From Temnopleurus reevesii (lineage: Eukaryota > Echinodermata > Echinoidea > Temnopleuroida > Temnopleuridae), in assembly GCA_036244855.1 (NCBI GenBank), contig BQKZ01001673.1, positions 21,794 through 85,793 on the forward strand: 64,000 nucleotides of DNA, given 5' to 3'. Below the pieces are notes generated by a model. That model ran no database searches and was not told where the DNA came from. It saw nothing but the letters and a program-made list of their open reading frames with translations. The translations under genes and the position numbers were made by a program. Position 1 is the first letter of the stretch, and every line of letters begins with the position of its first letter. Shown here piece by piece: positions 9,382-61,045 of the stretch.

Positions 9382-9384
<3 letters not shown>

Positions 9385-37475: not shown

Positions 37476-37828
37476 AACTTTACTGGAATCAAAACTACCA
37501 CTATTGTCTGCATATAAGTCAGGAGTGAAAAGAAAATGACAAAAGAATAGTGATGATTTCTTCCGGAACTAAATGCTTCCTACATTCCTATTGGTGTTAC
37601 CACCACATTTGTCTCCGACCTTGTCCCCCTTTTGCTGCTGTTCTTCAAGCAAACGTAATTTTCATTGATGCCTGAGAAGGTCAACCATGACCACTAATCA
37701 TATTCAATGTTCAGAAACGGAAGCGATGTCGTGTCTTGGTTCGGAATCTCACCTTTTTTTCTTCTTATTCTTTTTTCTTGGTAGGGAGGGGGTATATAAA
37801 CGTTTCTGCGCGGAGATCCAGAATTTGG

Positions 37829-37997
37829 TTGTGTTTCATAAAGCTGTGCGTAGATCTACGCACGGCTGTTCGAACGACTGGTTATCCTTTCTCACACTCA
37901 GTAACAACACCAGGCGATGGATTGCACCGAAGAAATGATCACCAGTCGTTCGCACAGTCGTGTGTAGATGTACGCACAGCTTTATGAAACACGGCCC
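37829..37997. mobile_element. Foldback element, family J (copy A)
   Basis: Ends TTGTGTTTCATAAAGCTGTG and, inverted, GCCGTGTTTCATAAAGCTGT, followed by inverted GTAGATCTACGCAC / GTAGATGTACGCAC and AACGACTGGT / GATCACCAGTCGTT. About 169 bp. The 83-codon frames over it are by-products. Confidence 0.8.
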
Positions 37998-38010
37998 TTG
38001 TCAAGAAAGA

Positions 38011-38110
38011 TTTTGATTTGATTTGATTTTATTCGTCATAATGCAAGAAAAATACATTGACAAGGATATCCCATGAAAGCCGAAGGCTTATTTCCAATGG
38101 GGTCCTTGAT
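38011..38110 (-). mobile_element. Probable LINE 3' end fragment, reverse strand (copy A)
   Basis: On the reverse strand the sequence ends in AATAAAATCAAATCAAATCA, preceded by TTGCATTATGACG and a small hairpin AAGCCTTCGGCTT. A short repetitive tail next to a 3' stem-loop is typical of CR1/L2/RTE-type non-LTR elements. No reverse transcriptase motif remains, so the clade cannot be named. Confidence 0.45.
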
Positions 38111-38695
38111 GGATTCCTTGATGAATTCCCCCTTTAAGTCACCATGCCTATAAAGTGCTAAGTATGGACATGGAAGCCATATGTTTTATTCTTCAAGACG
38201 AGTCAATAATTGACTATGACTGATTAACTCTCGTTTACATTTACGACGACATAACACTTTAACAGAAACCAGTTTAACATGAGTTAGTTTAATAGAGATG
38301 TGAACGGGGCGAGCGGTCATGAAAGTGGACTTCCAAACTGGTTTAGAAATTCAAAGATATGTCCGATTGTCGGTGAGTCCGGGGTACCAGGAGATTATGA
38401 CAGGCGGTGAATTTGGTCCACCTTACTTTAAACAAAAGGACAGGTAAATAACAATACTTGTCACATAACAATCATAATCAATTGCAGACTACGCATTTCG
38501 GAGGGGAAGATATTCTAATAAAATAGATACTAAAATGTGTGTGACTTTATGACTTGTTTCGGGTTGTGGAAGGTTTAGCGGGTTTTATTTCTGCACTCAC
38601 TGTACTTTTAATTGAAATGGCGTTTATGAACCGCCTAATCACCCACAAATCGAAACAAGAGCATGAGATCCCATATGTGACAATATATTGCATAA

Positions 38696-38949
38696 TTAAA
38701 GCCTGCGTCACACATTTGCGTTTTTAGCCTGCCTCGGCCTAGCGTTATTGGAAATTAAAAACGCTTCCTTGCCGGACAGCATACGCAGATCAGACCGTGG
38801 ACTGACGTTCGGCTTGCGCTCAACGAGCGTACGACGAGCGTCAGTCCACCGCATGACCTGCGTCTTTGCGCGTTAAGGGAGCGTTTTTAACTTCCAAAAA
38901 CCTTGGGCCGACGCAAGCTAAAAACGCATAGGTGTAACGCAGGCTTTAA
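38696..38949. mobile_element. Foldback element, family A (copy A)
   Basis: 254 bp with the cleanest family-A ends: TTAAAGCCTGCGTCACACAT and, inverted, TTAAAGCCTGCGTTACACCT. Inner arms contain GCGTTTTTAGC and its inverse, and the centre has GACGTTCGGCTTGCGCTC. Both ends finish in TTAA, which could be a target duplication. Confidence 0.85.
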
Positions 38950-39252
38950 AGTAAGGTGGACGAAATCCACTGCAGGACACAATCCACTGCAGGACACAAT
39001 CCGCTGGTACACCAATGACTCCAACCGGTACCGAGCGGCTCTATAACGCAATGACTCGCGCTTGAATTCCCTGTTCAGTGGCCGTCAAATCGCCCTGATA
39101 CAATTTGTCAAGGGGAATTTTCCGGTGCACCCGTCAAAAATAATGCGCCACCGAGTCAGGGGAAAGTAACCGTCTAGCATTAGGGATGTACAGAGGGGGG
39201 AAGGAAAGATCAGATGAAGGGTCGAATGTGTTAAATTATAAGACGAAAGAGG

Positions 39253-39290
39253 TAGTAGTAGTAGTAGTAGTAGTAGTAGTAATAGTAGTA
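39253..39290. repeat. (GTA)n microsatellite (copy A)
   Basis: About 12 AGT triplets with one interruption directly upstream of the SINE. The equivalent in copy B is at about 50985-51023. Confidence 0.85.
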
Positions 39291-39577
39291 GTGTAGTGGT
39301 TCTGACTCTCGCCTTTCAGGCAGAATTCCGCGGTTCGAGTCCTACCCAGGGCGTTAATTTCCTTCAGCAAGAAATTCATCCACACTGTGCTGCACTCAAC
39401 CTAGGTGAAAAATGGGTACCAGGCAGGAATTTATTCCTTGGAATGCTTGAGCGCCTAACTGGCTTCCTCGGAAGTTATAGCCAGTGTAATAATATGGTAC
39501 CTAGTATCAAGCGCAGTAGAGTATATGCATATAGTGATTGCGCTATATAAATGGACCTATTATTATTATTATTATTA
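39291..39577 (+). mobile_element. Full-length tRNA-derived SINE (copy A)
   Basis: Head GTGTAGTGGTTCTGACTCTC (A-box region), perfect B box GGTTCGAGTCC at 39332-39342, body CCTTCAGCAAGAAATTCATC, GTGCTGCACTCAACCTAGGT, AATGCTTGAGCGCCTAACTG, TTATAGCCAGTGTAATAATA, terminus GCGCTATATAAATGGACC and an ATT tail. About 287 bp. The 84-codon frame inside is not a protein. Confidence 0.9.
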
Positions 39578-39961
39578 GTAGTAGTAGTAGTAGTAGTAGC
39601 AGTGGTGGTGGTGGTGGTTGTGGTGGTGGTGGTTGTGGTAGTATTAATAGTAGCAATATAGAGTCTGAGGAACCGGGGGCTGAGGGGGCCTGCCCCACCC
39701 CATATTTTTGACAAGTGTGTGTGTGTGTATGTGTGCCCGCAATCTCGAAATCATTCCGCCCCTCCTGCAGTAGTAGTTGTTGTTGTCGTTGTTGTTGATA
39801 TAATTATTTTTGTTGAAGCAGGAGTAGTAGAAGAAAGAGGAAGAAGGAAAATGACATAAGTTAAGTTAAACGACCAAGAATAAGAAAATAAAGCAAGAAG
39901 GAGAAGAGGAGAAGGAATAGTACACGAAAAAGTAATACAAACCAACAAAACGATGATCATA

Positions 39962-40009
<48 letters not shown>

Positions 40010-40105
40010 GAGAGGATGAGGAGGAATAAGAAATAGAAGAAGGAGAAGAAAATGAAGAAGAAGAAGAAGAAGAAGAAGAAGAAGAAGAAGAAGAAGAAGA
40101 ATGGG
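39578..40105. repeat. Compound microsatellite region (copy A)
   Basis: (GTA)n and (GTG)n at 39577-39640, a TG run at 39714-39728, (ATG)n of about 15 units at 39963-40008, and (GAA)n of about 16 units at 40053-40100, within GA-rich DNA. The ATG and GAA blocks are much shorter in copy B. Confidence 0.9.
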
Positions 40106-42755
40106 GGAGGAGAAAAAGTGGACAGAAAAAACAATGGGATTGGGACGTTTATAAGAAAAAATACGAAGAAGAAACAACAGTGGTATATAGTTTAAAGGAG
40201 ATGGGTGTTATAAGGACTAAAGGACATGGCCGAGAGGTTAATAAAAAGAATAGACAGAGGGGATAAGGAGATAAGAAAGACAGAAAGAGACAAAAGAAGA
40301 TTTGAAAGAAGCCGGTTATCCTGGTATTGCGGCACGTGTGGACGTAAATTTGATATTCATATTTGATGATCTGTATCATTGAAGCCTCAATGACTATCAC
40401 CCTCCGTGGGGGTATAGCACAGGCGCGAACGGTGTATAATTTTCACTATACTTATTACGAATCTTCATAATCAGATTTTGGTTGAGATGGAGACTTTAAA
40501 AAATTGAGTTTTTCGATTCAATGATGAGGGTAATCGTGCCTGTAAGTGGGTGATAATGGATCGATTGCTTCAAGCAAAATGCGGTCGAGATTGACGGGGT
40601 CAAAGGTCAAGTTGATTGATGCGTTTTTAAGGAGGGATGGAATTCACAATGAGGGATAAAGTCAGTGTCCGGTTATTGATATCCATGCCATGTATCATAA
40701 TTGATATACTATGAAATTCAAATTATGGTTTGTCGTATGTGAATGTCAAGATCATTATGATGTTTTTTAAAGGAATAATAAGAAAGATATGGGACGTTTT
40801 AGATATTTAACATGCTAGATATGAGGGGTACTTTAAAGAAAGAGAAGGGAGTTGCGAGACAAAGAGAAACAATGGATTAACATTGAATAATTGTTGATTC
40901 AAAATTTGATGTAGGTCAAACAGTTAGGGTTGAAATGAAATGAATCGAGAAGAAGAGAAAGAGAGGGAGGGAGAGAGAGAGAGTGAAATTAAAATGAAGA
41001 AAGGAGATAGACAGAAAGAGAGAAGCGGAGATGAAATGGAATACTAGTATATCATCCGATATTCGGTCGGGAAAATTTCTCTCCCTTATATGCGCATACT
41101 GCGGCAGATTCAATAAACAGTTTCATCAGTGTATATACATTTCAGTGTATAATTTGGACATCCCAGGATTCTCGATGATTATTATTTTTTCTGGCTGTCT
41201 GTTGGAATCAAATTTTAATTGTCCCTGGGTCTCGCTAGCATGCATATTACATGTAATGCATTTACAAATGCCATTGACGAACTAATCCAATAATCATCAC
41301 TCGTGTTAATATCTAAAGGTAACAGTTGTTAAGACGAAGGATAAAATTGAAATATTGGATGTATTCTGACAGGTTTAAAAAGAGAGGATTGGTAATTTGG
41401 GGGTCATATTTTATCATGTTTCTTTATGCATGAGACAGTCACCACAGGCAATTTCAGATCTGAGAAGAGATTACCACAATGTCATTTTATTATCATAATG
41501 GATTTGTTCTTCATATTTTTGTCATTTTTTTTAATACCGATCATTGAAATGCGATCTGCTTTAAGTAGTATGGGTGTAAACGTTCAAACCATACTGTATA
41601 TCTAATTATTTGTGTTTTTATATGTTGCAAAGATACTGCTTTCGTTTCTACGACTAAATTTGTGTGCATGCGTTCGCAATCGATTCAATAATTCAAAAGT
41701 CAAATAGAAATTAGTTTGAACTTGAATGCGATGCTCTCGATGGACGAACGAATTATCTTCCTACACAGAACGGCACGCGTGGGACCAGGCTGAATGAAAT
41801 GAGATTCGATTTGTTATTTGAATAGTACATATTGATATATCAATCATCTGAGTCTAATAATTGTTAACGTTTAACGGAAGCTGCCAAGGCCAAACGTGTT
41901 TAGGGCTCTAGAACTGATGATTAGTTCCTAGCTTGTTATAATGAAACCTGTGGTAGAAGTGGGAATGGTGGCACGGTGGCCGGGTTGTGGGTGTGATACA
42001 GTCGTGGTGTGATGGTGGTAGTTTACCACTCACAGGTATCTGTCCGGTCAAAATGGCGTCAAAACGTTACTGATTGAATTTGAATGCATGGTCCAAAAGA
42101 TATGCATTAGATCAAAAAATATCCCTTCATTAATCTCTTTCTAGATTTCGATTAGCTTGAAGGCACAAGAATGATGTTAGCATTCTGAAAATACTAAATG
42201 TTCACGCAATAGCGAGTTGAATTTGAGTGCCTTCGAATATTTTTTCATTCGTTTTCTAGAAATGTAACCCCCGAGTTTCCCCTAATGTTATGAGGGATCA
42301 CGGACACCACTACACAATGTGTGAATTAAACATAATATTTTGTCAATTTCACATTTCACGACTTTTGATACAGATTCTCTCGTTTACTATATAGTGAAAG
42401 TTATCATGATCTATTTTCTTCTTTTTTGTAGCTAGAGGGTGAGAGAGAAAGATGAGGAAAAGATAAGTCATAACAAATAATCGTGTCGAGCTTGTTTGCA
42501 TTCATGACTTTCACGATGATTCAAACTTTCCAAAAAGTTTTGATGCGAGCCACTAATTTGTGCATAATTCTAAACTTATATTTGCTCTTTTCATTTAGAC
42601 TTTCCATAGTTTGTCTCCAGAAACCGCCAACATGTCTCTCAGTCTGACGAGAGAGTTAATTCGTCTGGGATAAAGTCGTCCATGTTTCAAATTATCGTTC
42701 ATTGATTATAATTTAAGATTGAATTGAGGAGAAAAAAATGAAAATTATACATTAG
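40106..42755. other. Gene-free stretch in copy A
   Basis: A GA-rich patch lies at 40950-41035. No exon was recognised. The 84-codon frame at 41031-41285 is preserved in copy B, but so is the surrounding non-coding sequence. Confidence 0.5.
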
Positions 42756-43035
42756 TTGGGATTTGAGACGGTTTAACAATCAATTGTATCTTTATTTTCT
42801 GGATTCTCCACCATGTATTGTGTATCTGCAATATAATTAACAAGTAACTATTATAACCGTTTTACATATTTGCGATATTTAAATTGATTGAAAACAATTT
42901 TGATTAGCATACCATCAGTTGAGATTGTAGACGATTTACTAATCAACGGTATGTCTACTTTGCAAGGTTCTCCACCATGTTTCAGTCAACTGCAATGCGT
43001 TTTATCGTTACTCAATTAACGGTTTTATGATTTTT
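42756..43035. repeat. Degenerate internal direct repeat (copy A)
   Basis: Two blocks of about 115-125 bp, the second starting near 42918, share TGAGA..TAGACG/GAGACGG, TTCTCCACCATGT and CAATTAACGGTTTTA-type words in the same order. Old and eroded. Confidence 0.5.
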
Positions 43036-43248
43036 CTTTTTCTTTTCACATGATCCGCCTGTTTCTGGTTGTTTCACGCTCTTCATTCATCAATCTGACC
43101 AATGTTCATATTTTTTGCCTCATCATGTTACACATATACAGGTAAGTGACGTCATCAATTCATTTTGTATTCTTTGAAAATGTAATAAACATGTTAAACT
43201 TTACATTTGAAAATGAACATCGAAATGAATGGTTTCATATCGAACCAA

Positions 43249-43375
43249 GGGCCTGTAACATAAAAGATGCAATTGAACTTACAATAAATATTTATCGTAA
43301 GTCTATGGCAAAATGTGTATCAAAGAGATGCAATTAATTGCAAGATTAATTGCATCTCTTTTATGTTACAGGCCC
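43249..43375. mobile_element. Foldback element, family E (copy A)
   Basis: Ends GGGCCTGTAACATAAAAGAT and, inverted, GGGCCTGTAACATAAAAGAG. Near the right end there is a second nested palindrome, GATGCAATTAATTGCAAGAT and following. The centre holds ATCGTAAGTCTATGGCAAA, present in all family-E copies. 127 bp, non-coding. Confidence 0.8.
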
Positions 43376-44194
43376 CAAATCTGGTAAGTACCAATTTAAT
43401 CCAAATGTGACATCGTAAAGGCATTTCCATTACTGTTTCTCCTGTTTTTTTTACAAGGCCAGTCTTGGTTCTGCCGAGTAAGATTCGACTCAGTGTCAGT
43501 TTTAATCAACTTTTTTTCTGAATGAAAGTAATCATAGGTAACGAGTCATTTTTATTCGAAGCTATGTGACATCAACTAAGAATTGACATGATATGGGCTG
43601 GAAGAAGAAAACCTCCAGATTAGTCACTTTGACTAAGATGAAATTTATTTATAGGTGATGTCATTTCCATATTCACGACATTGAATTAAACTGCGGTGTC
43701 ACTGATCAATAAAGACCAACAGATTCGAATGAAGCGATTGTATGGTTTGGAGAATGAGCTCAAAGGAACAAGTAAATACGATAATTTGTATGATGCAATT
43801 TCAATGTAGTCATGGGTCGTGAACTGGTGAAATAGAACCTACGATCATGCTACCATGGGAGTATAGCAGTTACTATCTCCCCGGTGTGACGGTGATTCAG
43901 TGGTCATGTGATACGGTAGAGTCATGCCGATCGTTCTTTAAGGGCACGTGACCTAGCAATTCAATATAAAAAGTCATATTTAATATTGCGAGATATACAC
44001 AAACACGGGTCATGTATTATTGCTTTATGATCAGCATGCACCAATTGTTGCATTCATAGAATACATGTTGGTTGTACCTCATGAAAAGGGGTGTAGAACG
44101 TTGAACAGTTTGTTGTTCATTCGTTTTATTGCCCACCCAGTGAATATTAATTCACTTCTATCATGATTTACTACGAAATTACAATAGATGTCTT

Positions 44195-44376
44195 AAAGGG
44201 TATTCAAAATCAACTGCTAATCAACTGCAACTAATCGACTGCAGCTTTGCAAATTGTAACGCGCATTTTCATTCGCGCACGGTATGCGCATTTTAACAAT
44301 AACAATGATTTTGATCGGCATGTTCTGATCAACTGCAACTTGCTATCAATTGCAATTTTTGAACAACGCCTCCTTA
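44195..44376 (+). mobile_element. Foldback element, family B (copy A)
   Basis: Contains AAAATCAACTGCTAATCAAC, GCGCATTTTCATTCGCGCAC, GGTATGCGCATTTTAACAAT and CAATTGCAATTTTTGAACAA. Both ends are weakened (AAAGGGTATTC / GAACAACGCCTCCTT). Confidence 0.75.
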
Positions 44377-44548
44377 ATCATTATAACAGAGTTATATATA
44401 TATATACATTAAACAAATATTTGAACCTTGCCAGCATATTATATACACCTTAATGTGGTTTTTGGGGGGTTTTTTGTTTGGAGGTACAGGCGCTGGGACA
44501 ATAGCAGCACCCTTTGGGGTGGAGATGTGCACTATTACGATGGAGAGA

Positions 44549-44628
44549 TCCACCCTATGGAGCATATCTCTACCCTATGGAGCATATCTCCACCCTATTG
44601 GGCATATCTCTACCCTATTGGGCATATC
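44549..44628. repeat. 20-bp minisatellite, four units (copy A)
   Basis: Four perfect-length 20-base units of the form TCYACCCTATKGRGCATATC. Position 3 alternates C/T/C/T while the TGGA/TTGG difference splits units 1-2 from 3-4, so the array probably grew by duplication of a two-unit block. It overlaps two short frames that are repeat translations. Confidence 0.9.
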
Positions 44629-44840
44629 TCTAACCTAAAGGGTACTGTTATCGTACCAACGAGTGCACCCTAAATTCTTAGCATGTACAGAAAGCGATTG
44701 ATAATGATATATGAATCTACAATTATGGTATTGCCCCCTTTTCCCTCCAATACTGTTGTATTCATCTATATTTCAGAAACTTTGCCAACGTTGCCATTCC
44801 ATACATAGATTTTCCTTCATGTTGTCTACATATACATATG

Positions 44841-44994
44841 GCAGGAATTTACTCCTTGGAATGCTTGAGCGCCTAACTGGCTTGCTCGGCAGTTATAGCC
44901 AGGGTAATAATATGGTACCTAGTATCAAGCACAGCAGAGTATATGCATACAGTGATTGCGCTATATAAATGGACCTATTATTATTATTATTATT
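44841..44994 (+). mobile_element. 5'-truncated SINE (copy A)
   Basis: Starts inside the body at GCAGGAATTTACTCCTTGGA and runs to GCGCTATATAAATGGACC plus ATT tail, nearly identical to the 3' half of the SINE at 39291. Confidence 0.85.
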
Positions 44995-45521
44995 TGTTTA
45001 GATTTAGTTATTATTTCAGTGTCTTTGATATTTTCAATGGTTATTTCTACTGGTTTTCTCATTTGATATTCATGAAAATTCCCACGTTCAACTTGCCTGG
45101 TAATGAGGCTAAATGCGAACAATGTATGTTTCGGAAAATAGGTATCGTCGTATTGAATCCATCATTCTCATTGACACCATTTTCAAAAGGAAACGTTTTT
45201 CACACTATAGATTTTCTTCACTCTATAGATTTTCTTCACTCATCCAATTCTCAAAGCAATTTTTGAGGTGAATTCTAAGCATGTCGAACGCTCATAACAA
45301 TCAAAGATATCATCCAATATCAGAATGATCCATAGACATTGTAAAAATAGACTCGAAAGGGGAAAAAGATCATTACTATTGCTAACACGTGACTCGACTT
45401 GGCTCGCGTGGTAGACTCGAAATACAGACCTAATCTGTATACTTTGTTTTGTGGCGCCGATTAAATAGGAACAAATGCGTCCGGAACTAACTCTAGCACA
45501 GCTGCTGAAAAAGACATATTT

Positions 45522-45697
45522 AACACGATATAAACTATTTTCGAAAAATAAAGTCGAACACCATTTCAATGGTTCTTTCTAATGCTATTCAAATCTTAAC
45601 CGGCTTGTCATTGTTTTGTCTGCACAGTTCTATTCACGGCGAACGGATCTATTCTCCTTCAACCGACTTTATTTTTCGAAAATAGTTTATATCATAT
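45522..45697. mobile_element. Foldback element, family C, first of a pair (copy A)
   Basis: Ends AACACGATATAAACTATTTT and inverted AATATGATATAAACTATTTT, with inner AAAAATAAAGTCGAAC. About 176 bp. Confidence 0.8.
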
Positions 45698-45795
45698 TAT
45701 TACCTAATTTTTGGTTAAAACCAGCTTTTAGTTCTCATTGTAGTTTTATATTTCAGACGTAACTCATGTTCGTTGTAGACGGGAAATATACCATG

Positions 45796-45971
45796 AATAC
45801 GAAATAAACTATTTCTGAAAAGTTAAGTGGGCCACAGACAATAGAGCCGTACGCCATGTATTCAACTGTGCGGACACAACAATCGCAAGCCAGTTCCGAT
45901 TTGAATAGAATTAGAAAGGACCATTCAATTTGCATTCGACTTAATTTTTCGAAAATATCTTATGTCGTGTT
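45796..45971. mobile_element. Foldback element, family C, second of a pair (copy A)
   Basis: Ends AATACGAAATAAACTATTTC and inverted AACACGACATAAGATATTTT. The central TTCAACTGTGCGGACACAAC is in opposite orientation to that of the element 98 bp upstream, so the two are separate insertions facing opposite ways. Confidence 0.8.
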
Positions 45972-46382
45972 CACATATCGTGTCTGCATTTGTAGACTAA
46001 CATGGAGTCTTATATCATCTGAAGATGAACCACTAGCCTTCTCCCCCATGTTCGCTGGAGTAAATTGAATTAGAATAGCTTACCATCAACATAATTGAAC
46101 TGGGTCTGCGAACACATGCATAAAATATTTAAACGTCAAATAGAACTAACTTGGCTGTTCATTCCTTTACGTGATTCAATGTGTGTCATAAAAAGTGATG
46201 AATCAATTGTAATGATATTTGTAAGAATGAAAATTTGATTCGTCTTATGACGCATTATGGTTGTTTCATGCTCTACTAAACGGAGAGACAGCAAAAAGAC
46301 TGAGAACATGAAAGCAATTTAAAAGGTCATTAAAAAGGGTCTTAAATTGATTTTTACCGGTATTATGATTACACAGACCACT

Positions 46383-46425
46383 TGTGCGCTTTGAAACACC
46401 TGTATAAAGCGCCTTATAAATGTAA

Positions 46426-46456
<31 letters not shown>

Positions 46457-46461
46457 TATTA
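46383..46461 (+). mobile_element. SINE tail fragment (copy A)
   Basis: GCGCTTTGAAACACCTGTAT then AAGCGCCTTATAAATG and an ATT/ATC tail. It resembles the 3' end of the SINE family but with a distinct terminal sequence, so it may belong to another subfamily. Confidence 0.55.
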
Positions 46462-47000
46462 AATGCTAAATCTTAAATTCCGTCTCAATATGCTGAATAT
46501 TTTAGTGTGCACATATAGCTGCAGGTGAAAATGTTAGCCTTCAAAACCAACGTTTAGTAAGTCAAAAAGGTATTACATATTTCCTCCGTAGACACACTTT
46601 ATATGAATTGCGATTTGTTAGGACTCTAGATTAAACGTTCGTAGATATTCTCTATGTTTGCATTTTTTTGTTGGTTTTCCATCCTTTTGAATGAAATCAA
46701 ATATAGCAGACAGCTTGATTTTATTTATGTACAGTGTTCTTAGTACCAACATGTGTGTTAGTTATACAAATAAAATAAAGAGTCATGATTGCCAGTAATT
46801 TGCATTTTTATCACAATTTGCGTTTTGAAATTAAATTCTCACCGTTAAATCACAAAAGTTGGATTTTCTCTGTCAGTTTTTATTTGAGACACCCTTACCT
46901 TTGAATAGAGATGTTTTTATTGAATGGCAAACACCTGCAAATGTGTTCGGTGTAGATGTAGTGAATATCGTCATAGATTCATTGACAAATACACACTCCT

Positions 47001-47119
47001 GAGCCCTGTAACATACAGCTTTCCAATCAATCGCACGATTGATATCAGTCGTAAGTCTACGGGAAACCATGAACTTAAGATCTGCGATTGATCGCAAACG
47101 ATTTGATGTTACAGGCCCC
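47001..47119. mobile_element. Foldback element, family E (copy A)
   Basis: Ends GAGCCCTGTAACATACAG and inverted GGGGCCTGTAACATCAAATC, with inner AATCGCACGATTGATATCAG and TCGTAAGTCTACGGGAAACC. The most decayed of the three family-E elements in this copy. Confidence 0.75.
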
Positions 47120-48736
47120 ATGATAAAAATGCCCGCGTTTTGATGACTCGGAGAAAGCTATTTGTCTTAAAGATTGACATTTATTCAATTTAGCAAGAAA
47201 AAAGGAATGAAATGAGGCGAGAAAAATATTCAGTATGCCTGCCATTCATGAATTTTCTTAATAGTATTCTAGGCTTGGAAAATTATTACAAAAATAGAAT
47301 TTGACATGTTCTTCTCCTTTCTATGCACTGCAATATGGAGCATGCGAATGTGTTTTTGTTTGTTATGAACATATCATTAACAACAGGACACAAACCATTC
47401 CGCAAAAGTACATGCGAAATCATGTTTTAATTAAATGTTTAATTAGATTTGTATAGTAAAATCATTATAAACGCTAACGAACAATATTTTTACTGAAATA
47501 CTAATATTACAACGACGCATCATTTATCAGCAATTCTAGTGTCGTGTCGTAGTTTGAAATGGTTTATTAAAAAGATAATATCGTTTGGTTTTATGAATTT
47601 TCCTGTTTATCAATCAATCAATGATTTTGCACGTAACTTTTGCGCAATAGTTTGTGGTACATTGTTAAGTATAATTTATGTTCATAAAAAAACTAAACAC
47701 ATTCGCAAGGTCCATATATTTCTTCCTAAGCAATCCCTCCAGATGTGCCTTGTGCTAAAACCCAAGCATAATTCAAAATGGCTTAATCTGCTATCATTTT
47801 GAGATAAGTCTAAAACATACCATTCTGTTAATTTTATAATTCAATATCGATTCTTATTCAAGGATTCCATTTTCACTTTCTTTCACTTTATTTCACTTGT
47901 AATCTATATCCGCATTCAATTTCGATTGGCAGGATTCCAGCTCAGTTAACAAAAAAAAAAGGAAGGTACTAATTATACACCACGCATCCAGCTACATTCA
48001 ATAATATAATATCAAGTTCACATTATTATGTAATTATGTTGTCCATATCCCTCAATGTTCTGCACACATCATAAATAACACGAAAACTTCTGTCTCAATA
48101 AATGAATTAAATGTGCTGCTCGGTGCTCAACATCATCAGATATCAGATAATGTCATGAAGCGTATTAATATCAATTTGTCTGTAATCATAATTGGAAGCC
48201 CGTGCTGTTAATATCATCCCTGTCATGATCTGTTTAATAAAGAGAGACAAGCAAATTAGATCCTGCATCATAATCGTGCACTGCCATCGTGGATTTAGGC
48301 TTAGTTCTAATGCTTTTTAAACAGTCGAATTTGTCAAATGCTTTAATCGATGATCCGTGCATTTTTCAAGCCTAAACACATCATTTAGGGGAGATTTAAT
48401 AGTGAGTCAATGGCTACATTTTTTACGCTATTAAGTGGCCTGATTAGGATGTCATGTCTTTATTTTATTTGTTTAGTAATTATTCATGTTTTCATCATTT
48501 CATTTTGTCGCTATTAAAAGCAACGACAAATGTTTGCTTTTAAATTGGTGAAAGGACTACCTAATGTACGTGAAGTCAAGATTCTAATGAAAAGTATGAA
48601 ATGATCATTTCCAATTGGGTATACAGTGAAAAAAGTGTGGCGTTATAAATTAAGCTGATATAGTTTGATATAGATACTAGGGTGATGTTGAAATATGCAT
48701 GGATAACACCATCGGTTTTACCTTAAACCAGTACCA
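47120..48736. other. Gene-free stretch in copy A
   Basis: No exon or repeat recognised. The 87-codon frame at 47539-47802 exists in both copies without a domain I know. Confidence 0.45.
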
Positions 48737-48869
48737 GGGCCCCGTAACATAAAGGTTTGCGATTAATTGTTAATCTGATATCAATCGTAAGTCTATGGCA
48801 AACCATGTACTAAAAATTGATCGCAAAATTGAATAGCGATTAATCGCAAACCTTTATGTTACGGGGCCC
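48737..48869. mobile_element. Foldback element, family E (copy A)
   Basis: Ends GGGCCCCGTAACATAAAGGT and inverted GGGCCCCGTAACATAAAGGT, identical over the first 20 bases, followed by TTGCGATTAAT / TTGCGATTAATCGC. 133 bp, the best-preserved copy. Confidence 0.85.
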
Positions 48870-49409
48870 AGGTAAATTTAACGCCAGTAATTTTGCATTG
48901 CATTAACGCACAAAAATTGAGCTCTCATGTGAAAACATAATATCTGAGTGAAAAAGGACATACTTTATTTCATACTTTACTCCAACATAATTAATTTTTA
49001 ATGATACAGCTTTAACATGCTTGTTTCAAACAGCCTTTGAATTTTGATCATGAAAATGGTCACGTGATCAGAAATTTTCTCGAGGAGTACCTCATAGAGC
49101 AAAGTGCTGCAATTGTCATAATGGACCGGTGTAAATTCGACAGAAAATGAAATAATAAAACAAGATATGGATATCATAAAAGAGTCTTGAAGACTTTCAA
49201 CCTCTCTCGCGCGAAACGTCATCTTAACCGTTCGTAAAATTGGCGGGAGAAATGCGAGGTTTTGGCGGTATAAATCATCGCAGGAGTCGGGAACCCATGT
49301 AATTAAGGAGAGAGCCCTGAGACAGAGGTATAAACAAACAGAGTTGAGGAGCTTGTCAGTGTAGATAGACTGATAGGGATGGCTGGAAGAGGGCAAGGTG
49401 ATCCCGGGG

Positions 49410-49560: not shown

Positions 49561-49729
49561 TTGTGTTTCATAAAGCTGTGCGTAGATCTACGCACGGCTG
49601 TTCGAACGACTGGTTATCCTTTCTCACACTCAGTGACAAAACCAGGCGATGGATTGCACCGAAGAAATGATCACCAGTCGTTCGCACAGTCGTGTGTAGA
49701 TGTACGCACAGCTTTATGAAACACGGCCC
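49561..49729. mobile_element. Foldback element, family J (copy B)
   Basis: Counterpart of 37829-37997 with only a couple of differences (for example AGTGACAAAACC against AGTAACAACACC). Confidence 0.8.
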
Positions 49730-49742
49730 TTGTCAAGAAAGA

Positions 49743-49842
49743 TTTTGATTTGATTTGATTTTATTCGTCATAATGCAAGAAAAATACATTGACAAGGATA
49801 TCCCATGAAAGCCGAAGGCTTATTTCCAATGGGGTCCTTGAT
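49743..49842 (-). mobile_element. Probable LINE 3' end fragment, reverse strand (copy B)
   Basis: Counterpart of 38011-38110. The 94-codon reverse frame leading into it (49768-50052) is open here, but copy A has a stop codon in the same frame where AGAATTGAAC reads AGAATAAAAC. Confidence 0.45.
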
Positions 49843-50428
49843 GGATTCCTTGATGAATTCCCCCTTTAAGTCACCATGCCTATAAAGTGCTAAGTATGGA
49901 CATGGAAGCCATATGTTCAATTCTTCAAGACTAGTCAATGGTTGACGATGACTGATTAACTCTCGTTTAAATTTACGACGACATAACACTTTAACAGAAA
50001 CCAGTTTAACATGAGTTAGTTTAATAGAGATGTGAACGGGGCGAGCGGTCATGAAAGTGGACTTCCAAACTGGTTTAGAAATTCAAAGATATGTCCGATT
50101 GTCGGTGAGTCCGGGGTACCAGGAGATTATGACAGGCGGTGAATTTGGTCCACCTTACTTTAAACAAAAGGACAGGTAAATAACAATACTTATCACATAA
50201 CAATCATAATCAATTGCAGATTACGCATTTCGGAGGGGAAGATATTCTTAAGGAATAGATAATAAAATGTGTGTGACTTTATGCACTTGTTTCGGGTTGT
50301 GAAAGGTTTAGCCGGTTTTGTTTCTGCGCTCACTGTACTTTTAATTGAAATGGCGTTTATGAACCGCCTAATCAACCACAAATCGAAACAAGAGCATGAG
50401 ATCCCATATGTGACAATATATTGCATAC

Positions 50429-50682
50429 TTAAAGCCTGCTTCACACCTTTGCGTTTTTAGCCTGCCTAGGTCTAGCATTTTTGGAAATTAAAAACGCTTC
50501 CTTGACGGACAGTATACGCCGATCAGACGGTGGACTGACGTTCGGCTTGCGCTCAACGAACATACGACGAGCGTCAGTCCACCGCATGACCTGCGTCTTT
50601 GTGCGTTAAGGGAGCGTTTTTAACTTCCAAAAACGCTGGGCCGACGCAGGCTTAATTCGCAAAGGTGTACCGCAGGCTTTAA
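50429..50682. mobile_element. Foldback element, family A (copy B)
   Basis: Counterpart of 38696-38949, same 254-bp length but with noticeably more substitutions than surrounding DNA, for example TCTAGCATTTTTGG against CCTAGCGTTATTGG. TTAA at both ends. Confidence 0.85.
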
Positions 50683-51023
50683 AGTAAGGTGGACAAAATA
50701 CACTGCAGGACACAATCCACTGCAGGACACAATCCGCTGGTACACCAATGACTCCAACCGGTACCGAGCGGCTCTATAACGCAATGACTCGCGCTTGAAT
50801 TCCCTGTTCAGTGGCCGTCAAATCGCCCTGATACAATTTGTCAAGGAGAATTTTCCGGTGCACCCGTCAAAAATAATGCGCCACCGAGTCAGGGGAGAGT
50901 AACCGTCTAGCATTAGGGATGTACAGAGGGGGAAAGGAAAGATCAGATGAAGGGTCGAATGTGTTAAATTATAAGACGAAAGAGGTAGTAGTAGTAGTAG
51001 TAGTAGTAGTAGTAATAGTAGTA

Positions 51024-51310
51024 GTGTAGTGGTTCTGACTCTCGCCTTTCAGGCAGAATTCCGCGGTTCGAGTCCTACCCAGGGCGTTAATTTCCTTCAG
51101 CAAGAAATTCATCCACACTGTGCTGCACTCAACCTAGGTGAAAAATGGGTACCAGGCAGGAATTTATTCCTTGGAATGCTTGAGCGCCTAACTGGCTTCC
51201 TCGGAAGTTATAGCCAGTGTAATAATATGGTACCTAGTATCAAGCGCAGTAGAGTATATGCATATAGTGATTGCGCTATATAAATGGACCTATTATTATT
51301 ATTATTATTA
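51024..51310 (+). mobile_element. Full-length tRNA-derived SINE (copy B)
   Basis: Counterpart of 39291-39577, apparently identical in the body including the B box GGTTCGAGTCC. Confidence 0.9.
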
Positions 51311-51785
51311 GTAGTAGTAGTAGTAGTAGTAGCAGTGGTGGTGGTGGTGGTTGTGGTGGTGGTGGTTGTGGTAGTATTAATAGTAGCAATATAGAGTCTG
51401 AGGAACCGGGGGCTGAGGGGGCCTGCCCCACCCCATATTTTTGACAAGTGTGTGTGTGTGTATGTGTGCCCGCAATCTCGAAATCATTCCGCCCCTCCTG
51501 CAGTAGTAGTTGTTGTTGTCGTTGTTGTTGATATAATTATTTTTGTTGAAGCAGGAGTAGTAGAAGAAAGAGGAAGAAGGAAAATGACATAAGTTAAGTT
51601 AAACGACCAAGAATAAGAAAATAAAGCAAGAAGGAGAAGAGGAGAAGGAATAGTACACGAAAAAGTAATACAAACCAACACTGAACGATGATGATGATGA
51701 TGATGATGATGATTGAGAGGATGAGGAGGAAGAAGAAATAGAAGGAGGAGAAGAAAATGAAGAAGAAGAATAAGAAGAGGGGGAG
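51311..51785. repeat. Compound microsatellite region (copy B)
   Basis: Counterpart of 39578-40105 with about 8-9 ATG units at 51687-51712 and only a few GAA units near 51758-51778. Confidence 0.9.
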
Positions 51786-54420
51786 GAGACAAAGTGGACA
51801 GAAAAAAACAAGGGGGTTGGGACCTTCAAAAGAAAAAATACGAAAAAGAAAGAACAGTGGTATATAGTTTAAAGGAGATGGGTGTTATAAGGACTAAAGG
51901 ACATGGTCGAGAGGTTAATAAAAGAATAGACAGAGGGGATAAGGAGATAAGAAAGACAGAAAGAGACAAAAGAAGATTTGAAAGAAGCCGGTTATCCTGG
52001 TATTGCGGCACGTGTGGACGTAAATTTGATATTCATATTTGATGATCTGTATCATTGAAGCCTCAATGACTATCGCCCTCCATGGGGAGTATAGCACAGG
52101 CGCGAACGGTGTATAATTTTCACTATACTTATTACGAATCTTCATAATCAGATTTTGGTTGAGATGGAGACTTTAAAAAATTGAGTTTTTCGATTCAATG
52201 ATGAGGGTAATCGTGCCTGTAAGTGGGTGATAATGGATCGCTTGCTTCAAGCAAAATGCGGTCGAGATTGACGGGGTCAAAGGTCAAGTTGATTGATGCG
52301 TTTTTAAGGAGGGATGGAATTCACAATGAGGGATAAAGTCAGTGTCCGGTTATTGATATCCATGCCATGTATCATAATTGATATACTATGAAATTCAAAT
52401 TATGGTTTGTCGTATGTGAATGTCAAGATCATTATGATGTTTTTTAAAGGAATAATAAGAAAGATATGGGACGTTTTAGATATTTAACATGCTAGATATG
52501 AGGGGTACTTTAAAGAAAGAGAAGGGAGTTGCGAGACAAAGAGAAACAATGGATTAACATTGAATAATTGTTGATTCAAAATTTGATGTAGGTCAAACAG
52601 TTAGGGTTGAAATGAAATGAATAGAGAGAAAGAGAAAGAGAGGGAGAGAGAGAGTGAAATTAAAAAGAAGAAAGGAAATAGACAGAAAGAGAGCAGCGGA
52701 GATGGAGTGGAATACTAGTATATCATCCGATATTCGGTCGGGAAAATTTCTCTCCCTTATATGCGCATACTGCGGCAGATTCAATAAACAGTTTCATCAG
52801 TGTATATACATTTCAGTGTATAATTTGGACATCCCAGGATTCTCGATGATTATTATTTTTTCTGGCTGTCTGTTGGAATCAAATTTTAATTGTCCCTGGG
52901 TCTCGCTGGCATGCATATTACATGTAATGCATTTACAAATGCCATTGACGAACTAATCCAATAATCATCGCTCGTGTTAATATCTAAAGGTAACAGTTAT
53001 TAAGACGAAGGATAAAATTGAAATATTGAATGTATTCTGACAGTCTGACAGAGAGGGTATTGGTAATTTGGGAGTCATATTTTATCATGTTTCTTTATGC
53101 ATGAGACAGTAACCACAGGCAATTTTCAGGCCTGAGAACAGATTACCACCAAGTCATTTTATTATCATAATGGATTCTTTTCTTCATATTTTTGTCATTT
53201 TTAAACCGATCATTGAAATACGATCTACTTTAAATAGTATGCGTAAAAACGTTCAAACCATACTGTATATCTAATTATTTGTGTTTTTATATGTTGCAAA
53301 GATACTGCTTTCGTTTCTACGACTAAATTTGTGTGCATGCGTTCGCAATCGATTCAATAATTCAAAAATCAAATAGAAATTAGTTTGAACTTGAATGAGA
53401 TGCTCTCGATGGACGAACGAATTATCTTCCTACACAGAACGGCACGCGTGGGACCAGGCTGAATGAAATGAGATTCGATTTGTTATTTGAATAGTACATA
53501 TTGATATATCAATCATCTGAGTCTAATAATTGTTAACGTTTAACGGAAGCTGCCATGGCCAAACGTGTTTAGGGCTCTAGAACTGATGATTAGTTCCTAG
53601 CTTGTTATAATGAAACCTGTGGTAGAAGTGGGAATGGTGGCACGGTGGCCGGGTTGTGGGTGTGATACAGTAGTGATGTGATGATGCCAGTTACCACCCA
53701 CGGGTATCTGTCCGGTCAAAATGGCGTCAAAACGTTACTGATTGAATTTGAATGCATGGTCCAAAAGATATGCATTAGATCAAAAAATATCCCTTCATTA
53801 ATCTCTTTCTAGATTTCGATTAGCTTGAAGGCACAAGAATGATGTTAGCATTCTGAAAATACTAAATGTTCACTCAATAGCGAGTTGAATTTGAGTGCCT
53901 TCGAATATTTTTTCATTCGTTTTCTAGAAATGTAAACCACGTGATTACTTCGATGATATGTGGGATTATGGACACCACTACAAAATGTGTGAAATAAACG
54001 TAATAACTGTTTTAAAAGATATCCCATTAATACAGATTCACTCGTTTATCATATAGTGCAAATTATCGCTCATGGTTTATTTTCTTCTTTTTTTATAGCG
54101 AGAGAGTGGGAGAGAGAGATGAGGAAAAGATAACCTAACAGATAATCGTGTCGAGCTTGTTTGCATTCATGACTTTCACGATGATTCAAACTTTCCAAAA
54201 AGTTTTGATGCGAGCCACTAATTTGTGCATAATTCTAAACTTATATTTGCTCTTTTCATTTTGACTTTCCATAGTTTGTCTCCAGCACCCGTCAACATGT
54301 CTCTCATTCTGACGAGAGAATTAATTCGTCTGGGATAAAGTCGTCCATGTTTCAAATTATCGTTCATTGATTATAATTTAAGATTGAATTGAGGAGAAAA
54401 AAATGAAAATTATACATTAG
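51786..54420. other. Gene-free stretch in copy B
   Basis: Counterpart of 40106-42755. Contains the diverged pocket at about 53934-54070. Confidence 0.5.
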
Positions 54421-54700
54421 TTGGGATTTGAGACGGTTTAACAATCAATTGTATCTTTATTTTCTGGATTCTCCACCATGTATTGTGTATCTGCAATATA
54501 ATTAACAAGTAACTATTATAACCGTTTTACATATTTGCGATATTTAAATTGATTGAAAACAATTTTGATTAGCATACCATCAGTTGAGATTGTAGACGAT
54601 TTACTAATCAACGGTATGTCTACTTTGCAAGGTTCTCCACCATGTTTCAGTCAACTGCAATGCGTTTTATCGTTACTCAATTAACGGTTTTATGATTTTT
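54421..54700. repeat. Degenerate internal direct repeat (copy B)
   Basis: Counterpart of 42756-43035 with no difference that I can see. Confidence 0.5.
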
Positions 54701-54913
54701 CTTTTTCTTTTCACATGATCCGCCTGTTTCTGGTTGTTTCACGCTCTTCATTCATCAATCTGACCAATGTTCATATTTTTTGCCTCATCATGTTACACAT
54801 ATACAGGTAAGTGACGTCATCAATTCATTTTGTATTCTTTGAAAATGTAATAAACATGTTAAACTTTACATTTGAAAATGAACATCGAAATGAATGGTTT
54901 CATATCGAACCAA

Positions 54914-55040
54914 GGGCCTGTAACATAAAAGATGCAATTGAACTTACAATAAATATTTATCGTAAGTCTATGGCAAAATGTGTATCAAAGAGATGCAATT
55001 AATTGCAAGATTAATTGCATCTCTTTTATGTTACAGGCCC
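54914..55040. mobile_element. Foldback element, family E (copy B)
   Basis: Counterpart of 43249-43375, no differences seen. Confidence 0.8.
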
Positions 55041-55849
55041 CAAATCTGGTAAGTACCAATTTAATCCAAATGTGACATCGTAAAGGCATTTCCATTACTG
55101 TTTCTCCTGTTTTTTTTACAAGGCCAGTCTTGGTTCTGCCGAGTAAGATTCGACTCAGTGTCAGTTTTAATCAACTTTTTTTCTGAATTAAAAGTAATCA
55201 TAGGTAACGAGTCATTTTTATTCGAAGCTATGTGACATCAACTAAGAATTGACATGATATGGGCTGGAAGAAGAAAACCTCCAGATTAGTCACTTTGACT
55301 AAGATGAAATTTATTTATAGGTGATGCATTTTCCATATTCACTGCATCAAATTTGCTCAATAAAGACCAACAGATTTTAATGAAACGATTGTACGGTCTG
55401 GAGAATGAGCTCAGAGGAACAAGTAAATACGATAATTTGTATGATGCAATTTCAATGTAGTCATGGGTCGTGAACTTGTGAAATAAAACCTAAGATCATG
55501 CTGTCATGGGAGTATAGCAGTTACTATCTCCCCGGTGTGACGGTGATTCAGTGGTCATGTGATACGGTAGAGTCATGCCGATCGTTCTTTAAGGGCACGT
55601 GACCTAGCAATTCAATATAAAAAGTCATATTTAATATTGCGAGATATACACAAACACGGGTCATGTATTATTGCTTTATGATCAGCATGCACCAATTGTT
55701 GCATTCATAGAATACATGTTGGTTGTACCTCATAAAAAAGGGGTGTAGAACGTTGAACAGTTTGTTGTTCATTCGGTCTTGCATTGCCCATCCAGTGAAT
55801 ATTAATTCACTACTATCATGATTTACTACGAAATTACAATAGATGTCTT

Positions 55850-56031
55850 AAAGGGTATTCAAAATCAACTGCTAATCAACTGCAACTAATCGACTGCAGC
55901 TTTGCAAATTGTAACGCGCATTTTCATTCGCGCACGGTATGCGCATTTTAACAATAACAATGATTTTGATCGGCATGTTCTGATCAACTGCAACTTGCTA
56001 TCAATTGCAATTTTTGAACAACGCCTCCTTA
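55850..56031 (+). mobile_element. Foldback element, family B (copy B)
   Basis: Counterpart of 44195-44376, no differences seen. Confidence 0.75.
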
Positions 56032-56203
56032 ATCATTATAACAGAGTTATATATATATATACATTAAACAAATATTTGAACCTTGCCAGCATATTATATA
56101 CACCTTAATGTGGTTTTTGGGGGGTTTTTTGTTTGGAGGTACAGGCGCTGGGACAATAGCAGCACCCTTTGGGGTGGAGATGTGCACTATTACGATGGAG
56201 AGA

Positions 56204-56283
56204 TCCACCCTATGGAGCATATCTCTACCCTATGGAGCATATCTCCACCCTATTGGGCATATCTCTACCCTATTGGGCATATC
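56204..56283. repeat. 20-bp minisatellite, four units (copy B)
   Basis: Counterpart of 44549-44628 with the same number and order of unit variants. Confidence 0.9.
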
Positions 56284-56495
56284 TCTAACCTAAAGGGTAC
56301 TGTTATCGTACCAACGAGTGCACCCTAAATTCTTAGCATGTACAGAAAGCGATTGATAATGATATATGAATCTACAATTATGGTATTGCCCCCTTTTCCC
56401 TCCAATACTGTTGTATTCATCTATATTTCAGAAACTTTGCCAACGTTGCCATTCCATACATAGATTTTCCTTCATGTTGTCTACATATACATATG

Positions 56496-56649
56496 GCAGG
56501 AATTTACTCCTTGGAATGCTTGAGCGCCTAACTGGCTTGCTCGGCAGTTATAGCCAGGGTAATAATATGGTACCTAGTATCAAGCACAGCAGAGTATATG
56601 CATACAGTGATTGCGCTATATAAATGGACCTATTATTATTATTATTATT
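56496..56649 (+). mobile_element. 5'-truncated SINE (copy B)
   Basis: Counterpart of 44841-44994. Confidence 0.85.
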
Positions 56650-57158
56650 TGTTTAGATTTAGTTATTATTTCAGTGTCTTTGATATTTTCAATGGTTATT
56701 TCTACTGGTTTTCTCATTTGATATTCATGAAAATTCCCGCGTTCAACTCGCCTGGTAATGAGGCTAAATGCGAACAATGTATGTTTCGGAAAATAGGTAT
56801 CGTCGTATTGAATCCATCATTCTCATTGACACCATTTTCAAAGGGAAACGTTCTTCACACTATACGTGTAGTTCTTTTGCACACATCCAATTCTCAACGC
56901 AATGGGTAAATTCTAAGCATGTCGGACGCTCATTACAATCAAAGATATCATCCAATATCAGAATGATCCATAGACATTGTAAAAATAGACTCGAAAGGGG
57001 AAAAAGATCATTACTATTGCTAACACGTGACTCGACTTGGCTCGCGTGGTAGACTCGAAATACAGACCTTATCTGGATACTTTGTTTAGTGGTGCCGACT
57101 AAATAGGAGCAAATGCGTCCGTAATGAACTCTAGCACAGCTGCTAAAAAGACATATTT

Positions 57159-57334
57159 AACACGATATAAACTATTTTCGAAAAATAAAGTCGAACACCA
57201 TTTCAATGGTTCTTTCTAATGCTATTCAAATCTTAACCGGCTTGTCATTGTTTTGTCTGCACAGTTCTATTCACGGCGAACGGATCTATTCTCCTTCAAC
57301 CGACTTTATTTTTCGAAAATAGTTTATATCATAT
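57159..57334. mobile_element. Foldback element, family C, first of a pair (copy B)
   Basis: Counterpart of 45522-45697. Confidence 0.8.
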
Positions 57335-57432
57335 TATTACCTAATTTTTGGTTAAAACCAGATTTTAGATCTCATTGTAGTTTTATATTTCAGACGTAAC
57401 TCATGTTCGTTGTAGACGGGAAATATACCATG

Positions 57433-57608
57433 AATACGAAATAAACTATTTCTGAAAAGTTAAGTGGGCCACAGACAATAGAGCCGTACGCCATGTATTC
57501 AACTGTGCGGACACAACAATCGCAAGCCAGTTCCGATTTGAATAGAATTAGAAAGGACCATTCAATTTGCATTCGACTTAATTTTTCGAAAATATCTTAT
57601 GTCGTGTT
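57433..57608. mobile_element. Foldback element, family C, second of a pair (copy B)
   Basis: Counterpart of 45796-45971. Confidence 0.8.
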
Positions 57609-58020
57609 CACATATCGTGTCTGCATTTGTAGACTAACATGGAGTCTTATATCATCTGAAGATGAACCACTAGCCTTCTCCCCCATGTTCGCTGGAGTAA
57701 ATTGAATTAGAATAGCTTACCATCAACATAATTGAACTGGGTCTGCGAACACATGCATAAAATATTTAAACGTCAAATAGAACTAACTTGGCTGTTCATT
57801 CCTTTACGTGATTCATTGTGTGTCATAAAAAGTGATGAATCAATTGTAATGATATTTGTAAGAATGAAAATTTGATTCGTCTTATGACGCATTATGGTTT
57901 GTTTCATGCTCTACTAAACGGAGAGACAGCAAAAAGACTGAGAACATGAAAGCAATTTAAAAGGTCATTAAAAAGGGTCTTAAATTGATTTTTACCGGTA
58001 TTATGATTACACAGACCACT

Positions 58021-58063
58021 TGTGCGCTTTGAAACACCTGTATAAAGCGCCTTATAAATGTAA

Positions 58064-58094
<31 letters not shown>

Positions 58095-58098
58095 TATT
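58021..58098 (+). mobile_element. SINE tail fragment (copy B)
   Basis: Counterpart of 46383-46461. Confidence 0.55.
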
Positions 58099-58638
58099 AA
58101 ATGCTAAATCTTAAATTCCGTCTCAATATGCTGAATATTTTAGTGTGCACATATAGCTGCAGGTGAAAATGTTAGCCTTCAAAACCAACGTTTAGTAAGT
58201 CAAAAAGGTATTACATATTTCCTCCGTAGACACACTTTATATGAATTGCGATTTGTTAGGACTCTAGATTAAACGTTCGTAGATATTCTCTATGTTTGCA
58301 TTTTTTTGTTGGTTTTCCATCCTTTTGAATGAAATCAAATATAGCAGACAGCTTGATTTTATTTATGTACAGTGTTCTTAGTACCAACATGTGTGTTAGT
58401 TATACAAATAAAATAAAGAGTCATGATTGCCAGTAATTTGCATTTTTATCACAATTTGCGTTTTGAAATTAAATTCTCACCGTTAAATCACAAAAGTTGG
58501 ATTTTCTCTGTCAGTTTTTATTTGAGACACCCTTACCTTTGAATAGGGATGTTTTTATTGAATGGCAAACACCTGCAAATGTGTTCGGTGTAGATGTAGT
58601 GAATATCGTCATAGATTCATTGACAAATACACACTCCT

Positions 58639-58757
58639 GAGCCCTGTAACATACAGCTTTCCAATCAATCGCACGATTGATATCAGTCGTAAGTCTACGG
58701 GAAACCATGAACTTAAGATCTGCGATTGATCGCAAACGATTTGATGTTACAGGCCCC
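58639..58757. mobile_element. Foldback element, family E (copy B)
   Basis: Counterpart of 47001-47119. Confidence 0.75.
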
Positions 58758-60372
58758 ATGATAAAAATGCCCGCGTTTTGATGACTCGGAGAAAGCTATT
58801 TGTCTTAAAGATTGACATTTATTCAATTTAGCAAGAAAAAAGGAATGAAATGAGGCGAGAAAAATATTCAGTATGCCTGCCATTCATGAATTTTCTTAAT
58901 AGTATTCTAGGCTTGGAAAATTATTACAAAAATAGAATTTGACATGTTCTTCTCCTTTCTATGCACTGCAATATGGAGCATGCGAATGTGTTTTTGTTTG
59001 TTATGAACATATCATTAACAACAGGACACAAACCATTCCGCAAAAGTACATGCGAAATCATGTTTTAATTAAATGTTTAATTAGATTTGTATAGTAAAAT
59101 CATTATAAACGCTAACGAACAATATTTTTACTGAAATACTAATATTACAACGACGCATCATTTATCAGCAATTCTAGTGTCGTGTCGTAGTTTGAAATGG
59201 TTTATTAAAAAGATAATATCGTTTGGTTTTATGAATTTTCCTGTTTATCAATCAATCAATGATTTTGCACGTAACTTTTGCGCAATAGTTTGTGGTACAT
59301 TGTTAAGTATAATTTATGTTCATAAAAAAACTAAACACATTCGCAAGGTCCATATATTTCTTCCTAAGCAATCCCTCCAGATGTGCCTTGTGCTAAAACC
59401 CAAGCATAATTCAAAATGGCTGATTCTGCTATCATTTTGAAATAAGTCCAAAGCATACCATTCTGTTAATTTTATAATCCAATAGCAATTCTTGATCAAG
59501 GATTTCATTTTCACTTTCTTTCACATCATGACATGTAATTTGTATTCACAATCAATTTCGATTGGCAGGATTCCAGCTCAGTTAACATGACAAAAAAGTA
59601 CTAATTATAGAGCACGCATCCAGCTACATTCAATAATATAATATCAAGTTCACATTATTATGTAATTATGTTGTCCATATCCCTCAATGTTCTGCACACA
59701 TCATAAATAACACGAAAACTTCTGTCTCAATAAATGAATTAAATGTGCTGCTCGGTGCTCAACATCATCAGATATCAGATAATGTCATGAAGCGTATTAA
59801 TATCAATTTGTCTGTGCTCTTAATTGGAAGCCCGTGCTGTTAATATCATCCCTGTCATGATCTGTTTAATAAAGAGAGACAAGCAAATTAGATCCTGCAT
59901 CATAATCGTGCACTGCCATCGTGGATTTAGGCTTAGTTTTAATGCTTTTCAAACAGTCGAATTGGTCATGTACTTTAATCGATGATCCGTGCATTTTTCA
60001 AGCCTAAACACATCATTTAGGGGAGATTTAATAGTGAGTCAATGGCTACATTTTTTACGCTATTAAGTGGCCTGATTAGGATGTCATGTCTTTATTTTAT
60101 TTGTTTAGTAATTATTCATGTTTTCGTCATTTCATTTTGTCGCTATTAAAAGCAACGACAAATGTTTGCTTTTAAATTATTAAAAGGGCTACCTAATGTA
60201 GATGAATGAAATCGAGATTCAAATGAAAAGTATGAAATGATCATTTCCAATTGGGTATACAGTGAAAAAAGTGTGGCGTTATAAATTAAGCTGATATAGT
60301 TTGATATAGATACTAGGGTGATGTTGAAATATGCATGGATAACACCATCGGTTTTACCTTAAACCAGTACCA
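58758..60372. other. Gene-free stretch in copy B
   Basis: Counterpart of 47120-48736, with more differences at 59440-59610 and 59930-60220 than elsewhere. Confidence 0.45.
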
Positions 60373-60505
60373 GGGCCCCGTAACATAAAGGTTTGCGATT
60401 AATTGTTAATCTGATATCAATCGTAAGTCTATGGCAAACCATGTACTAAAAATTGATCGCAAAATTGAATAGCGATTAATCGCAAACCTTTATGTTACGG
60501 GGCCC
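60373..60505. mobile_element. Foldback element, family E (copy B)
   Basis: Counterpart of 48737-48869. Confidence 0.85.
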
Positions 60506-61045
60506 AGGTAAATTTAACGCCAGTAATTTTGCATTGCATTAACGCACAAAAATTGAGCTCTCATGTGAAAACATAATATCTGAGTGAAAAAGGACATACT
60601 TTATTTCATACTTTACTCCAACATAATTAATTTTTAATGATACAGCTTTAACATGCTTGTTTCAAACAGCCTTTGAATTTTGATCATGAAAATGGTCACG
60701 TGATCAGAAATTTTCTCGAGGAGTACCTCATAGAGCAAAGTGCTGCAATTGTCATAATGGACCGGTGTAAATTCGACAGAAAATGAAATAATAAAACAAG
60801 ATATGGATATCATAAAAGAGTCTTGAAGACTTTCAACCTCTCTCGCGCGAAACGTCATCTTAACCGTTCGTAAAATTGGCGGGAGAAATGCGAGGTTTTG
60901 GCGGTATAAATCATCGCAGGAGTCGGGAACCCATGTAATTAAGGAGAGAGCCCTGAGACAGAGGTATAAACAAACAGAGTTGAGGAGCTTGTCAGTGTAG
61001 ATAGACTGATAGGGATGGCTGGAAGAGGGCAAGGTGATCCCGGGG

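Follow-up and report, generated by a model that had tools for sequence, protein, structure and literature searches.

Does the 11.7-kb direct repeat in contig BQKZ01001673.1 of Temnopleurus reevesii reflect a tandem duplication in the genome of the animal, or was one locus written twice during assembly? We addressed this question in a window of 64,000 nucleotides, that is, the whole stretch analyzed here (GenBank assembly GCA_036244855.1, positions 21,794 to 85,793 of the forward strand). From its sequence layout, the segment at 37679-61045 of the window is very probably a false tandem duplication, produced when a heterozygous diploid was assembled and two haplotype contigs were placed end to end. 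The parts of the segment are as follows, in window coordinates.

37679-49409, + strand: copy A, taken as the terminal 11,731 bp of the left contig (from self-alignment, with the contig limits inferred from the N)
49410, no strand: single N, putative contig join, with copy A ending immediately before it and copy B starting immediately after it
49411-61045, + strand: copy B, taken as the first 11,635 bp of the right contig, running on into sequence with one full-length match in the assembly

Limits and copy number of the duplicated segment

When the window was compared with itself, a single direct repeat dominated, pairing 37679-49412 with 49411-61048 at 96.7% identity over 11,758 columns; the three bases after 49409 in this match are an extension through the N. 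Global alignment set the limits at 37679-49409 for copy A and 49411-61045 for copy B. It yielded 263 substitutions in 11,615 aligned columns (141 transitions and 122 transversions) and 26 internal runs of insertions or deletions (indels), the longest of which (28 and 29 bp) lie within GAT and GAA microsatellites. A sequence-only reading of this DNA had held that the copies are collinear throughout and that the duplication breaks at the N at 49410. Both claims were borne out at the coordinates given, as this N, the sole ambiguous base of the segment, lies 0 bp from both copies. The first 31 bases on its 3′ side reappear at 37679, and the last 31 bases on its 5′ side reappear at 61015-61045. The layout is that of a flush dovetail, in which the terminal part of the left piece aligns with internal sequence of the right piece as far as 61045, and the right piece in its turn begins with sequence that is found in the left piece from 37679 onward.

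Chance is not a candidate for the origin of an 11.7-kb match. Were the five single Ns of the window placed at random in 64 kb, the probability of one falling within 2 bp of the junction at 49410 would be about 0.0004. If assemblers tend to break at duplication junctions, the actual chance of an N on the junction would exceed this value. By the same token, because repeats break assemblies, a break at the junction of a real duplication would not be pure chance. This bears on an alternative that we consider unlikely, namely, a true, recent 11.7-kb tandem duplication in which the assembly broke at the junction and partial gene conversion left a mosaic of differences. Such an event could give the same layout, provided that the N fell on the junction. 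A true tandem would be recognized by a junction that lies on one molecule or one unbroken contig; the junction between A and B carries an N. Copies this similar would be expected to cause a break or a collapse somewhere inside them, not at both outer limits of the overlap.

We searched the assembly (558 Mb in 10,433 contigs) for the doubled sequence. Two probes were used, one of 410 bases from the end of copy A and one of 801 bases that included a divergent pocket, and each had exactly two matches, both in this contig. The right flank (61100-64000) had one full-length match among 40 scored of 364 candidates, and the other 39 scored candidates all matched a dispersed repeat about 147 bp long.

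61118-61264, + strand: dispersed repeat, with at least 39 further occurrences in the assembly (78 to 86% identity; 40 of 364 candidates scored)

This repeat begins at 61118, 73 bp beyond the position that matches the last base of copy A, and is possibly the reason why the left contig ended. We counted a left contig that stops some 70 bp before a dispersed repeat in favor of a false duplication. Together, the flush dovetail at 49410, the recurrence of this arrangement at other single Ns (described below), the probes that match in two places, and the one full-length match of the right flank favor the same interpretation.

Under a false duplication, one haplotype path would have given the assembler a contig that ends at 49409, and the other path a contig that starts at 49411. 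Paired reads would then have joined the unique parts of the two contigs, leading to an estimated gap of about −11.7 kb. With 2.3% substitutions and 26 indels between the two ends, a scaffolder would have been unable to merge them and would have written a minimal gap of one N, and the true locus would hold one copy per haplotype. Some scaffolders represent a negative gap by a single N. A literature search for the rule that a negative gap is written as a single N found only related statements and not the rule itself; these concern negative gap sizes for overlapping contigs in ALLPATHS-LG and the placing of gaps between overlapping contigs by SOAPdenovo2.

The arrangement can be set beside known kinds of assembly error. 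As described in the pertinent passages of Kelley and Salzberg (2010; PMC2864568), duplicated overlapping contigs are adjacent contigs with ends that align at >95% to both ends and that come from heterozygous sequence placed twice, the thresholds being an overlap of >300 bp at >95% identity and within 300 bp of both contig ends. Likewise, copies A and B align end to end over 11,753 columns at 96.6%, are separated by one N, and lie 0 bp from the contig ends on both sides if the N is taken as the contig boundary. According to the same passages, their overlap is longer than most of the published cases (mostly <2,000 bp; in cow, up to 28 kb in a few cases), and its identity of 96.7% is below the published median of 98.1%. 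In the corresponding part of Ko et al. (2022; PMC9516828), heterotype false duplications are alleles assembled as paralogs, with a gap between the duplications as one mark; here, the gap is the single N at 49410, and the copies differ at 263 sites. The cases of Kelley and Salzberg were confirmed by mate pairs, and the calls of Ko et al. also use haploid read depth, k-mers, and discordant linked reads, whereas the assignment of A and B draws on sequence criteria.

Single Ns across the assembly

As a control, we scored single Ns in the window and in other stretches of the assembly, which are cited by L numbers. Seventeen stretches were sampled (four of them all N), followed by three and then three more (L029 and L033 of these six were all N); N runs in the sampled stretches may be gaps. 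With the window included, the control sample contained 193,305 non-N bases and 14 single Ns. A single N was scored as flush when a duplication of at least 60 bp at ≥85% identity had a natural end of its self-alignment no more than 5 bp away.

A duplication was flush on both sides at 4 of the 14 single Ns (49410 and 34073 in the window, L008:3287, and site 9413 of L028+L031) and on at least one side at 5 of 14, the fifth being site 10808 of L028+L031. Among random positions in the control sequence, the corresponding counts were 21 and 310 of 100,000. When 49410 was removed, the proportions were 3/13 for both sides and 4/13 for at least one side (P = 3 × 10−9 and 6 × 10−8, respectively, by a binomial test), and outside the window they were 2/9 and 3/9 (P of about 2 × 10−6 each). 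Before L031 was added, the proportions were 3/12 and 4/12, compared with 17 and 296 of 100,000 random positions. A control based on arbitrary cuts (211 of 1,183 positions flush on one side and 44 of 1,183 on both) was dropped as unsound, because cutting inside any repeat creates a flush end.

The second example within the window is a short suffix-prefix overlap.

33972-34072, + strand: left copy of the 101-bp suffix-prefix overlap
34073, no strand: single N, flush between the two 101-bp copies
34074-34174, + strand: right copy of the 101-bp overlap, with 1 mismatch

The interval 33972-34174 is a probable second, smaller false duplication. At L008:3287, three collinear blocks (97.3, 93.3, and 88.4% identity) are separated by large differences in length, with an overlap of about 1.8 versus 2.5 kb, and both outer ends are flush with the N. 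In L028+L031, the piece at 9414-10807 is wedged between two contigs with ends that overlap by 294 bp at 94.6%; both ends of the piece match neighboring parts of L028:6112-6461, and a middle part of about 1 kb is extra. Two further single Ns bound a contained contig in L012, where 4482-5720 repeats 6198-7439 over its full length, apart from 19 substitutions and an indel of 3 bases. This piece is flush at 5721 when both sides are compared separately, and it fits the sequence part of the contained-contig definition (>93% coverage at >95%, as worded in the passages of Kelley and Salzberg cited above).

These sites also bear on a true tandem duplication. It is disfavored by a flush layout that recurs with overlaps of 101 bp (34073), 294 bp (L028+L031), and about 1.8 versus 2.5 kb (L008), and by a contained piece of 1.2 kb (L012) that is likewise bounded by single Ns. 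Abutting two-copy direct repeats of at least 60 bp, counted as one continuous match, occurred three times in 181,853 non-N bases; two of the three have an N at the junction, and the only one without is no more than a 117-bp match. The substitution divergence between A and B (2.3%) falls inside the range of eight aligned blocks from other sites (1.0 to 11.2%), which we counted in favor of a false duplication.

Several points weigh against the interpretation of 49410 as a join between two haplotype contigs. The sample was not wholly random, because the findings in L028 prompted the choice of L031. The two sites of L028+L031 (9413 and 10808) stem from a single error and do not count as independent, and under the strict end test the L012 sites do not pass. 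No nearby match was present across the N at five of the 14 sites (254 and 23936 in the window, L008:6273, L028:5274, and L032:4638), and two others had partial or nonflush matches, which indicates that a single N need not mark an unmerged overlap. At one of the latter, L030:8270, a 72-bp match starts 2 bp after the N and, on the other side, stops short of it. At the other, position 29044 of the window, a collinear direct repeat of 91% identity (28580-29022 versus 29653-30095) is not flush with the N and may represent either overlapping alleles that differ by large indels or a mobile element present in two copies. That single Ns mark contig joins is itself something that we infer for this assembly. 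Finally, the differences between A and B are more clumped than those in neutral simulations or in the other, much shorter, pairs, and this sharp mosaic does not fit plain alleles.

Mosaic of differences between the copies

In a two-state model of the differences between A and B, 82% of the columns had 0.18% substitutions and 18% had 11.7%, with mean tract lengths of 299 bp (near-identical) and 66 bp (divergent). The longest identical run was 926 bp. For comparison, we simulated a neutral two-sample coalescent with recombination, a model that assumes one mutation rate and no selection, at rho/theta values of 0.01, 0.03, 0.1, 0.3, 1, and 3 (300 runs per rate, kept when the total was within 30% of that observed). 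The variance-to-mean ratio of the differences in 100-bp bins was 7.7, compared with simulation means of 1.6 to 2.5, and at none of the six rates did any of the 300 runs reach this ratio; on this measure of dispersion, the neutral coalescent was rejected as an explanation for the clumping. The number of identical runs of at least 400 bp rejected it weakly (0 to 1.7% of runs reached the observed number), and the longest identical run alone did not reject it (926 bp was reached by 3.7 to 21% of runs). In 50-bp bins, the ratio was 4.9 for copies A and B and 0.5 to 2.4 for seven blocks of at least 100 columns from other sites, but these blocks are short.

A mosaic of this kind is a possible product of conversion between tandem paralogs. 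Clumping beyond the reach of neutral simulations counts toward a true duplication, as does the ratio of 141 transitions to 122 transversions, which resembles real divergence and not random base errors. A real young tandem would then require that conversion made 82% of the sequence near-identical and left short pockets that are about 12% divergent, and that the assembly broke exactly at the junction, a combination that we regard as quite improbable. Another explanation is a homotype false duplication, in which one haplotype was assembled twice by way of read errors and the pockets are misbuilt or wrongly filled sequence. The near identity of the copies over most of the segment would suit such an error, but the excess of transitions (141 of 263, compared with one-third for random bases) indicates that the pockets are real divergence. 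The indels are small and clean, and the ten stretches inspected have natural-looking sequence on both sides, leaving a homotype error very improbable indeed.

For a false duplication built from two haplotypes, the sharpness of the mosaic might be understood if the assembler had collapsed milder differences into one consensus common to both contigs and had kept only the very divergent bubbles. The sequence-only reading had diagnosed a probable haplotypic duplication, and the N flush with both ends of the overlap, along with the same signature at other single Ns, supports this diagnosis. It had also described the copies as differing in the manner of alleles. Substitutions, microsatellite lengths, and short pockets were indeed found, the pockets being sharper than expected; the even divergence of plain alleles gave way to a two-state mosaic, which weakens this part of its reasoning.

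Content of the segment and neighboring features

Protein-family scans covered copy A and the right flank. In six frames of copy A (with an X at each stop), no Pfam family scored above its curated cutoff; the single weak match, to DUF7358 (17.3 bits against a cutoff of 27), lies over the GAT and GAA microsatellites and was rejected. Six frames of the right flank (61049-64000) contained no protein family up to an E value of 0.01, and no RNA family or tRNA was recognized in the full window by Rfam (at the gathering threshold) or by a tRNA scan. The doubled sequence is noncoding as far as the Pfam, Rfam, and tRNA scans show. As no protein family in copy A scored above its curated cutoff, the harm would fall on counts of repeats and noncoding sequence and not on known genes.

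If the duplication is false, about 11.7 kb of the window is surplus at this locus, with the same DNA counted twice. Single Ns prove to be a usable flag for doubled sequence here, and bias would enter studies of gene counts, repeat counts, copy number, or heterozygosity that use this assembly if such joins were neither collapsed nor masked. The biology is ordinary, and the assembly error is of an ordinary kind.

Some smaller features of the gaps and repeats were also recorded. A run of 4,246 Ns lies directly beyond the right edge of the window (L005 1-4246), and a 131-N gap at 16229-16359 has an ATT microsatellite to its left and a C run to its right. The single N at 254 sits inside a C run. 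The direct repeat on either side of 29044 holds a foldback element (28731-28998). Long minisatellite-like tandem arrays occur in L013 (about 6100-9800) and L019 (about 7500-9000). Within the duplicated segment, a 155-bp repeat of 95% identity is present twice per copy, at 39422-39576 and 44840-44994 in copy A and at 51155-51309 and 56495-56649 in copy B.

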